From assembly GCF_000319245.1 (NCBI RefSeq), contig NC_019814.1, forward strand, positions 434,001 through 498,000: DNA of 64,000 nucleotides. The letters run 5' to 3'. Under the pieces are notes generated by a model. It was not told the DNA's origin. It made no database searches and saw only the letters and a list, made by a program, of their open reading frames with translations. This stretch comes from Candidatus Kinetoplastibacterium blastocrithidii (ex Strigomonas culicis). Its GTDB lineage: Bacteria > Pseudomonadota > Gammaproteobacteria > Burkholderiales > Burkholderiaceae_B. The position numbers and the translations under genes are program-made. Shown here one piece after another: positions 6,435-8,964 of this stretch (position 1 is the stretch's first letter; each line of letters begins with the position of its first letter).

Positions 6435-6479
6435 AAAGATATATAACTATGCTGGTAATATTTGTTATTATATATCTTT
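6435..6479 (-). terminator. Long AT-rich inverted repeat across the spoT stop codon
   Basis: A perfect 12-bp inverted repeat (AAAGATATATAA at 6435-6446 and its complement at 6468-6479, 21-nt loop) includes the spoT stop codon. Its position suggests a weak transcription end for spoT, but the stem is nearly all A-T and the T tail on the minus strand is short, so termination is not certain. Confidence 0.35.
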
Positions 6480-8042
6480 TTCATATTCGATCGAGTTTAG
6501 GTATTTTCGAACTTCATATATAGCTTTTATGGATTTTATATGATTAAGCCATTGAATGTCAGGATTTGATCTATTTGATGTTATTATTTCAACCCTATCA
6601 CCACTATTTAATTTTTTATATAATGAGCTCCACTTCCCATTAATTTTAGAGGTTGCTACTTTATTGCCAAGATTAATCTTAATTGCATATGCGAAATCTA
6701 TTACAGTAGAATCTTTTGGAAGATTAATAACTTTTCCTGATGATGAGAAAACATATATAGTATCCTGTAAGAGCTCAGTTTTTATATATTCCAAAAATTC
6801 TTTTGCTTTATAGGTTTCATTATGTATATCTAATGCACAAGGAAATTTATATTTTTCTAGCTGTTTTTGAAATTCTGTATTGTCTTGTTTTTTTATCCAA
6901 TAATTAGCAATTCCATTTTCAGCCAAATTATCCATATTTTTCGTTCTAATTTGAAATTTTATTTTTATCCCATTAGAGCTAATTACTGTTGTATGCAAGG
7001 ATTGGTAGCCATTTATTTTTGGCATAGATATGTAGTCTTTAAATTTCTCATTTATTGGTTTGTAATACTGATGTATAACCCCCATTGTTGAATAACAGTC
7101 AGAGATTTTACTAGTAGTAATAATGAAATAGTATGTATCTGTAATCTCGGAAAAAGTCACCCCGCGTGATAACATTTTTTTATATGAGCTAAATAATGAA
7201 TCTGTACTTCCATTCCTAACTTCAACATCTAAGTTATTTCTTGACGTTTCTTTATATATATCATATCTTATCTTATTGCTTAATTTATTATGTTTTTGTC
7301 GTTCAAATAATATTGCTTTATACATTATTTTGAATCTATGTGGATATATTACGGCAAAACTCAAATCTTGTAATTCTTTACAAGTAATATTTAACCCGAG
7401 TCTATAAGCTATTGGTGCGTATATCTCTAATGTTTCATTTGCCACTCTTCTTTTTTTGATAGGATTGTTTATAGCGTTTATAGTGCGCATATTATGTAAT
7501 CTATCTGCCAGCTTTATAAGAATTACCCTAATATCTTTATCTGTGGCTATTAACATTTTTCGTAGATTTGCCGCTTGTTGTTCAAGTTTATTACTAAAAT
7601 CAAGCTTGTCAAATTTTGATAGGCCATCGACTAATATCGCTACATTTTTACCAAATTTTGTTTCTAACTCAAGTTTTGATATTCCATGATCTTCTATAAC
7701 ATCATGTAATAATGCTGCTGATATTGCCTCTTTATCTAGTTTCCATTGTGAGCATATTTCAGCTACAGCTATAGGATGTGATATGTAAGGAGATCCACTC
7801 TCTCTTTTTTGTCCAGCATGAACTTTATCTGCCAATATAAAAGACTCGCAAACTATCTGCAGGTCTTTTTTAGATAGATACAATTTTAATTTTTTCAGTA
7901 AAGACAAGAAAGAATTATTTTTAATCAGTAAGAATTGACTAAGATTACCATCTAGTCTGAAATAATCTTTATTCCAGAAATTCAGAAACTTAAAGAATCT
8001 TGATAAGCTACTGGAAATAGTCCTGATCTCATTTGAACTCAT
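6468..8042 (-). CDS. spoT: SpoT/Rel family (p)ppGpp hydrolase with damaged synthetase domain
   Basis: Placement behind rpoZ and gmk identifies this as SpoT, the enzyme that breaks down and normally also makes the alarmone ppGpp. The hydrolase domain looks intact: HAGQKR at 75-80, YISHP, LLHDVIED around the HD pair at 113-114, and LADRLHNMR at 178-186. The synthetase domain keeps D302 and GYQSLH (345-350), but the usual FR of DxYxFR is FI (I307), the catalytic Glu of VExQIRT is Lys (K362, codon AAA), and AAHW is ANYW. The protein stops after the TGS domain at 524 residues; relatives have about 700 or more with helical, zinc-finger and ACT regions. Inference: a hydrolase without synthetase activity or ribosome regulation. 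Confidence 0.88.
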   Translation of the reverse strand: MSSNEIRTISSSLSRFFKFLNFWNKDYFRLDGNLSQFLLIKNNSFLSLLKKLKLYLSKKDLQIVCESFILADKVHAGQKRESGSPYISHPIAVAEICSQWKLDKEAISAALLHDVIEDHGISKLELETKFGKNVAILVDGLSKFDKLDFSNKLEQQAANLRKMLIATDKDIRVILIKLADRLHNMRTINAINNPIKKRRVANETLEIYAPIAYRLGLNITCKELQDLSFAVIYPHRFKIMYKAILFERQKHNKLSNKIRYDIYKETSRNNLDVEVRNGSTDSLFSSYKKMLSRGVTFSEITDTYYFIITTSKISDCYSTMGVIHQYYKPINEKFKDYISMPKINGYQSLHTTVISSNGIKIKFQIRTKNMDNLAENGIANYWIKKQDNTEFQKQLEKYKFPCALDIHNETYKAKEFLEYIKTELLQDTIYVFSSSGKVINLPKDSTVIDFAYAIKINLGNKVATSKINGKWSSLYKKLNSGDRVEIITSNRSNPDIQWLNHIKSIKAIYEVRKYLNSIEYEKDI

Positions 8043-8057
8043 AATTTAACATTAAAA

Positions 8058-8261
8058 TTAGCCAGGTACTTTGGATAGCATCTCTAAGCCAGACAATCCT
8101 TTACTTATTTCACGTAGTGCTAGAACAGTAGGCTTGTCCTTGCTTTCTAATTTTGGAGCGTGACCTTGTGCTAATTCACGAGCGCGGTATGCAGCTGCTA
8201 AGGTAAGATCAAATCTATTGTTTATGTTTTTTAAGCAATCTTCTACTGTTATACGTGCCAT
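8058..8261 (-). CDS. rpoZ: RNA polymerase omega subunit
   Basis: Omega binds the beta-prime subunit and helps RNA polymerase assemble. The 67 residues start [33 protein letters not shown], the most conserved part of the family, and contain the expected [11 protein letters not shown] segment. It lies between gmk (73 nt upstream) and spoT (15 nt downstream), the standard gmk-rpoZ-spoT order in proteobacteria. Confidence 0.96.
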
Positions 8262-8334: not shown

Positions 8335-8964
8335 CTAATTTGTAATACCTAGCTTATTAAATAGATTTTTATTCTTAAAGTACTGGTATTGAAATCTCAA
8401 TTTTGTTGATTTTATGATATGATTCATATCTGATCTCGCTAAGTTGAAATCAGAGTTTATTATAACATAATCATAATCACTAGAGCGCATGATTTCATTC
8501 TTGGCTTCAGATAATCTTTTCTCTATAACTTCCATAGAATCCAGGTTCCTGAGAATTAAACGGTTTCGTAATTCTTCGATTGATGGCGGTAGAATAAAAA
8601 TTCTGATTGCATTTGGATAACAATTTTTTATTTGATCTGAGCCTTGGCAATCTATTTCTATTATAAAATCAGTATCTTTAATTGTTTTATTGTTTATGAC
8701 TGACTTGTGTGTTCCATAGAAATTACTATGCACTTTCGCCCATTCTATGAATTCGTTGTTATTACGCATTTTTAAAAAGTCTTCTACTGACACAAAGTGA
8801 TAATCAATTCCATTTTTTTCGCCAAATCTAGGCTTCCTTGTAGTATAAGATATAGAAAATGTTATTGATTCATTATCATTCAGCAGTGCCTTTATTAGAC
8901 TAGATTTACCTGATCCGCTAGGTGCTGTTACAATAAATAAATTGTTGTTACTCATGTTAATCAT
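8335..8964 (-). CDS. gmk: Guanylate kinase
   Basis: Gmk phosphorylates GMP to GDP with ATP. The P-loop TAPSGSGKSSLIKALL sits near the N-terminus, followed by the GMP-binding SYTTRKPRFGEKNGIDYHFVS and the EWAKVHSNFYGT block. Two Met codons are possible starts (8964 and 8955); neither has a strong ribosome site, so the first three residues are uncertain. Length (209) is normal. It is the first gene of the gmk-rpoZ-spoT run and diverges from amn across a 220-nt gap. Confidence 0.95.
   Translation of the reverse strand: MINMSNNNLFIVTAPSGSGKSSLIKALLNDNESITFSISYTTRKPRFGEKNGIDYHFVSVEDFLKMRNNNEFIEWAKVHSNFYGTHKSVINNKTIKDTDFIIEIDCQGSDQIKNCYPNAIRIFILPPSIEELRNRLILRNLDSMEVIEKRLSEAKNEIMRSSDYDYVIINSDFNLARSDMNHIIKSTKLRFQYQYFKNKNLFNKLGITN

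Follow-up and report, generated by a model that had tools for sequence, protein, structure and literature searches.

The spoT locus and its product

The window analysed here is a stretch of 64,000 nucleotides (positions 434,001 to 498,000 of contig NC_019814.1) from the single-contig genome, 820,037 bases long, of Candidatus Kinetoplastibacterium blastocrithidii (G000); Candidatus Kinetoplastibacterium is a betaproteobacterial obligate endosymbiont of trypanosomatids. On the minus strand of the window, gmk for guanylate kinase (8335..8964) is the upstream neighbour of rpoZ (8058..8261), which encodes the omega subunit of RNA polymerase with its N-terminal MARIT, in the site 1 contact region, present, and of spoT (6468..8042), an open reading frame with an ATG start that encodes a protein of 524 residues. 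The order gmk-rpoZ-spoT is that of E. coli, and in a FastTree phylogeny of the synthetase (SYNTH) region a branch with support 1.000 has every SpoT, including that of E. coli, on the same side, so that both gene order and clade placement identify the protein as a SpoT ortholog.

Pfam recognises HD_4 (153.5 bits), RelA_SpoT (90.1 bits) and TGS (residues 429-488) in this protein and detects nothing C-terminal to TGS; the NCBIfam model spoT_relA scores 483.6 bits, under its cut-off of 499.2. Of the long-RSH architecture (HD, SYNTH, TGS, HEL, ZFD/CC and ACT/RRM) only HD, a SYNTH-like domain and TGS are left. The HD hydrolase domain spans residues 46-217 (7392..7907), the putative pseudo-synthetase residues 218-400 (6843..7391), and a linker with TGS, residues 401-524 (6471..6842), forms the C-terminal end of the protein, all on the minus strand. 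An AlphaFold model built with eight Bacilli Rel rows reached a mean pLDDT of 71.4, with values below 50 at residues 1-38, 164-168, 332-346, 386-426 and 520-524. Its top fold matches were B. subtilis Rel (6yxa) and A. baumannii SpoT (7qpr), with modest whole-chain TM.

Alignment with E. coli SpoT and relatives (E. coli SpoT numbering) revealed that five synthetase residues are replaced: E319 by Lys, R236 by Ser, K238 by Asp, R264 by Ile and H338 by Tyr. The catalytic Glu position is taken by the AAA codon 362 (6957..6959), within IKFQIRT; the GRxK loop has degenerated to NGSTDSLFSSYKKM (7173..7214), with a one-residue insertion; the Arg of DxYxFR is lost in DTYYFI (7122..7139); and the His of AAHW/ASHW is lost in ANYW (6897..6908), all read from the minus strand. 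K246, D259, Y303, H307, Q321, R323 and W339 are kept. A small shift of the alignment does not restore the Glu, as there is none nearby. In the HD domain, R80, H89, H113, D114, E117, D118, D180, H183 and N184, which we take to be the catalytic residues of SpoT, are invariant in an alignment with eight Bacilli Rel proteins. An earlier sequence-only reading of this DNA had singled out the Lys at the catalytic Glu, the Ile in DxYxFR, ANYW, the intact HD motifs and the stop at 524 residues after TGS, and each of these features holds up in the alignments, the open reading frame and the Pfam matches. Intact HD and lost SYNTH catalytic residues make up the pattern designated SpoT[Hs]. This protein is very probably unable to make ppGpp and would retain hydrolysis only, which is also what that reading had proposed.

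The synthetase changes are shared and old

Eight genomes of the genus were compared. Besides G000, we take G001 to be K. oncopeltii, G002 K. galatii, G004 K. desouzaii and G003 K. sorsogonicusi, the last being presumably the Kentomonas symbiont. G006 is the Angomonas deanei symbiont (PMC3616161) and G005 the symbiont PNG-M02 (PMC8229890). Only G000, G001, G002 and G004 carry spoT, and the changes seen in the window recur in the three others. AAA stands at the catalytic Glu position in all four genomes, and the four SpoTs also have in common the insertion in the GRxK loop and the loss of the HW His. In G000-G002 the catalytic Glu, the Arg and Lys of GRxK and the Arg of DxYxFR are gone; in G004 the Glu, both Arg and the Asp. 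The tRNA-contact His of TGS is Lys in G000-G002 and Ser in G004. Codon 362 might have been suspected of being a sequencing or assembly error, since AAA differs from GAA by one base, but the same Lys codon in four genomes, along with several further catalytic losses, refutes this explanation.

Because the changes are common to all four SpoTs, a single loss of the synthetase, before the symbionts of Strigomonas and Angomonas diverged, is the simplest account. The four genus SpoTs have an identity of 0.63-0.68 with the relative G010 in HD versus 0.40-0.50 in SYNTH, whereas in larger-genome relatives the two domains are about equally similar to it (HD/SYNTH 0.68/0.67 in G020, 0.80/0.80 in G011 and 0.85/0.82 in G008). 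Among 33 genomes outside the genus, no SpoT-length frame had a match as weak as those of the genus SpoTs (91-94 bits); in two of the 33, a short frame gave a further weak match (86.8 bits, 327 residues; 48.6 bits, 351 residues).

The lengths of the proteins differ within the genus. SpoT has 752 residues in G004, 524 in G000 and 525 in both G001 and G002, while RelA, the other RSH of these genomes, has 734 in G004, 340 in G000, and 308 and 345 in G001 and G002, where stop-to-stop frames were taken (the first ATG would give 279 and 330). The end points of SpoT and RelA are nearly identical among G000, G001 and G002, and no relics of the missing C-terminal tails were legible by eye in three frames over 260 bases downstream. 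G004 appears as an intermediate stage, with both long RSHs at full length and the SpoT synthetase residues already lost.

A shortened RelA keeps the synthetase residues

The sequence-only reading had envisaged breakdown of the alarmone without any synthesis, a strange state were there no other synthetase in the genome. This part did not survive a search of the full genome, which revealed a second RSH that could explain the loss in SpoT: a shortened RelA of 340 residues, encoded outside the window at about 657,724-658,746 of contig C1 (1453-2475 of locus L001). SpoT and this RelA are the only PF04607 matches in G000, a third being absent, and the RelA_SpoT model scores 141.9 bits for RelA versus 90.1 bits for SpoT.

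The synthetase residues checked (R, K, K, D, R, Y, H, E, Q, R and HW) are present in all four genus RelAs. The G000 protein has a motif of the EXDD type, EEFDD (EEFDDY from residue 271), and GRLK in place of GRPK. Its HD_4 score, 11.4 bits, lies below the Pfam cut-off of 27.2, and Pfam finds no TGS match in it. Intact SYNTH residues, the EXDD motif and a dead HD are the features of RelA[hS]; the ribosome-sensing TGS, ZFD and RRM of that type are missing, as the protein stops after SYNTH. SpoT of the SpoT[Hs] pattern, as judged from residues, would accordingly co-exist with a RelA that looks competent for synthesis.

The shortness of this RelA might suggest one of the SAS, which are tetrameric short synthetases. 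The data place it nearer the long-RSH families: the order pncB-relA-trpB is found in G000 and likewise in G004 and the larger genome G011, the NCBIfam RelA model scores 189.0 bits versus 37.6 bits for the YjbM model, and the best PDB matches are long Rel/RelA, with SAS much weaker.

Live domains are held and dead ones looser

The NG86 estimates of dN/dS among the three Strigomonas symbionts (G000, G001 and G002) differ by region, although the ratios are rough because dS was above 1 in several pairs and could not be computed in one. In SpoT they are 0.07-0.09 for HD, 0.11-0.14 for the pseudo-synthetase and 0.14-0.27 for the TGS part; in RelA, 0.07-0.13 for SYNTH versus 0.34-0.55 for the N-terminal part. 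Against G004, SpoT gives 0.13-0.16 (HD) and 0.28-0.44 (pseudo-synthetase), and RelA 0.10-0.19 (SYNTH) and 0.60-0.79 (N-terminal part). With a codon model and IQ-TREE likelihood ratios, omega = 1 was rejected for every region tested, including the RelA N-terminal part (p = 4.7e-07). Therefore, the live domains are under strong constraint, and the dead ones are under weaker constraint but not released from it; the RelA N-terminal part, with omega below 1, is probably translated and has some function.

The constraint on the pseudo-synthetase could be taken to mean that SpoT still synthesises weakly through some other geometry and is thus bifunctional, the more so as positions Y303, H307 and K246, along with the KFKD motif, are kept. 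We regard this as very improbable, given the catalytic residues missing from both the Strigomonas symbionts and G004. Moreover, a constrained pseudo-synthetase fits a structural or allosteric role of the kind reported for A. baumannii SpoT (PMC9974481).

Joint loss of relA and spoT

Both genes are present in four of the eight genus genomes and both are missing from the other four; none has a single one. In the four RSH-less genomes (G003 and G005-G007, of which G007 is a ten-contig draft), the SpoT query had no match even at E <= 10. In the rpoC tree the losers are the basal G003 and a clade of G005-G007, sister to G004, which implies two loss events, each removing both relA and spoT. In G003 the spoT slot, from rpoZ to pyrF, measures about 50 bp and the relA slot, from pncB to trpB, about 100 bp; in G005-G007 the two measure about 330-425 bp and 450-660 bp, respectively. 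At E <= 1, tblastn found no RSH remnant in either slot; the few matches (E 0.09-0.92) were on the wrong strand or at other sites. All eight genus genomes, the RSH-less ones included, retain a DksA-family match. GppA/Ppx had no match in any of the eight.

This pattern bears on the question of whether the SpoT HD domain acts chiefly on another nucleotide, in which case the pair would not be a ppGpp cycle. HD-only relatives with different substrates do exist, and MESH1, whose type of HD acts on NADPH, appears among the weaker fold matches of the SpoT model. However, the HD of SpoT aligns with Rel/SpoT over its whole length, SpoT is retained together with a competent-looking RelA in all four keepers, and the two are jointly absent from all four other genomes. 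In addition, RelA is reported to be toxic in E. coli when SpoT, that is, the hydrolase, is missing (PMC12742793). Taken together, these observations leave the other-substrate explanation with very little probability. By analogy, the joint loss would be in line with the same toxicity. The basal place of G003 in the rpoC tree agrees with that published for K. sorsogonicusi (PMC8229890), and symbionts lacking RSHs were already known (PMC3153485).

RNA polymerase site 1 where the enzymes are gone

In E. coli, site 1 of RNA polymerase holds the ppGpp phosphates through beta' R417 and K615 and residues 2-5 of omega (PMC7676912). Position 615 of beta' is Arg or Lys in all 36 outgroups of the order, every one of which has RSH matches, and Arg in all four keepers. 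In the RSH-less genomes (rpoC loci L053 in G003, L056 in G005, L057 in G006 and L061 in G007) it is His in G005-G007 and Glu in G003. Across the 88 beta' columns with Lys or Arg in every one of the 36 outgroups, the keepers have no change, G005-G007 have changed only at 615, and G003 at 535 and 615. By simple arithmetic, the chance that two lineages with one and two changes share a column is about 2/88, for a pattern that was found post hoc and is based on two events. As a control, 565 well-conserved beta' columns show 14-16 changes in keepers versus 15-17 in losers, which is about equal.

The other residues inspected do not track the loss of the enzymes: beta' 362, 417, 619 and 622 are identical in all eight genus genomes, and 417 varies in two of the 36 RSH-bearing outgroups. 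The site 2 residues 680, 681 and 684 are likewise identical in all eight. In G003 the omega N-terminus (L084, L109) reads MDSVT instead of MARIT, which alters the segment that contacts site 1; G005-G007 keep MARIT. Such residues of the binding site might show whether a reduced genome still uses ppGpp.

The results as a whole also have to be set against plain decay, that is, the possibility that both genes are remnants in a shrinking genome, that ppGpp is irrelevant and that loss is merely incomplete on the G000 branch. Half of the genus genomes have indeed lost both genes, and domains are being shed, with the pseudo-synthetase, TGS and the RelA N-terminal part all looser. Yet the live domains retain their catalytic residues and low dN/dS over three species, omega = 1 is rejected, and in this genus Arg at beta' 615 is confined to genomes that still have the enzymes. 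We therefore consider decay improbable, if less so than a bifunctional SpoT or another substrate.

A proposed two-enzyme ppGpp cycle

A dead SpoT synthetase in the same genome as a RelA with its synthetase residues in place suggests that RelA probably makes ppGpp and SpoT removes it. We propose, with a probability of roughly 0.83, that the ppGpp cycle of the symbiont is split between two enzymes, each with a single activity: SpoT, consisting of HD, pseudo-synthetase and TGS, would hydrolyse (p)ppGpp, and a separate short RelA, a synthetase core with an eroded N-terminal part, would make ppGpp. The EXDD motif has been tied to GDP preference in RelA (Atkinson 2011, PMC3153485), and a RelA with EEFDD would on this basis yield ppGpp directly. 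The SpoT synthetase would have died before the symbionts of Angomonas and Strigomonas diverged; the regulatory tails of SpoT and RelA and the RelA HD would have been lost later, on the branch of the Strigomonas symbionts.

With neither protein having all the parts by which long RSHs sense ribosomes and tRNA, the pair may set a basal ppGpp level and not a starvation-triggered burst, the steady level being determined by expression and substrate and read at least partly through RNA polymerase site 1. We are less sure of this steady level than of the division between RelA and SpoT itself. Its fullest form, in which ppGpp in Strigomonas symbionts is no longer a starvation alarm and the stripped pair holds it constant, as a fixed growth brake acting at site 1, is a tentative idea that we would put somewhat short of even odds. 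If true, a constant-ppGpp state would perhaps be a stage on the way to losing both enzymes, as in the symbionts of Angomonas deanei and Kentomonas.

Two reports on related enzymes bear on how well such a pair might work. Hydrolysis by A. baumannii SpoT is reported to be five-fold lower without RRM and ZFD and 42-fold lower when TGS-HEL is also removed (PMC9974481), so the naturally truncated symbiont SpoT may be less active. Activation of synthesis in E. coli RelA is aided by the pseudo-HD (PMC8012599); by analogy, the eroded pseudo-HD of the symbiont RelA would count against the proposed cycle, as would its GRLK in place of GRPK.

The genus offers a further test of the RSH division of labour, as its stages are visible side by side: full-length proteins with the SpoT synthetase dead (G004), both proteins stripped (G000-G002) and both gone (G003; G005-G007). 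Two related symbiont lineages thus go beyond a RelA/SpoT split by losing both enzymes together. This raises the question of why a symbiont that divides in step with its host retains a ppGpp cycle at all.

Comparison with known systems

In Moraxellaceae, the full SpoT[Hs]/RelA[hS] division of labour has been known since 2011 (PMC3153485), with a biochemical demonstration following in 2022 (PMC9974481). The likeness to the Moraxellaceae system, as reported for Acinetobacter (PMC3153485, PMC9974481, PMC12742793), is close: the SpoT synthetase is dead, HD is live as judged by residues, and RelA is the synthetase. Even the tRNA-contact His of TGS is lost in both, being Ser in A. baumannii SpoT (PMC9974481) as in G004, and Lys in G000-G002. 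The HD site of A. baumannii SpoT is scaffolded by TGS and Core and regulated by the pseudo-synthetase (PMC9974481); the constrained pseudo-synthetase and TGS of the symbiont SpoT would agree with these roles. As the symbionts are betaproteobacterial, their loss of the SpoT synthetase was probably independent of that in Moraxellaceae. Unlike Moraxellaceae, the Strigomonas symbionts truncate both proteins, SpoT after TGS and RelA after SYNTH with HD eroded, and sister species of G000 have lost both genes, with no third PF04607 match in G000 itself.

In the open-access literature we found no RSH split in which an obligate symbiont has both enzymes without their ribosome-sensing parts, nor any stepwise RSH stripping within one genus or matching site 1 change. 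The same literature yielded nothing on Strigomonas and the stringent response, or on Kinetoplastibacterium and ppGpp among the matches listed, and the words ppGpp and SpoT do not occur in the symbiont papers searched.

The short RelA resembles SAS such as RelQ and RelP in being a synthetase core with no HD above cut-off and no C-terminal domains. It differs from them in deriving from a long RelA, as synteny indicates, in being nearer to long RelA in sequence, and in keeping the long-RSH EXDD motif and an N-terminal part of roughly 155 residues.

Proteins that end where the symbiont SpoT ends are known or encoded elsewhere. Rel frames in Bacilli/Tenericutes MAGs (L085-L090, L092 and L093; eight of nine loci, L091 being set aside) have 480-501 residues and stop right after TGS. 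These frames and RshC, which is truncated in the helical domain (PMC3153485), stop at a similar point to the symbiont SpoT. Unlike the latter, RshC carries the bifunctional notation RshC[HS] in the paper describing it (PMC3153485), and the eight Bacilli frames, coming from MAGs, are known from sequence alone. The closest counterpart is a laboratory construct, SpoTAb 1-454, which lacks RRM, ZFD and HEL and is left with the same HD, pseudo-synthetase, Core and TGS (PMC9974481). In the symbiont SpoT, by contrast, the truncation is natural and common to three species.
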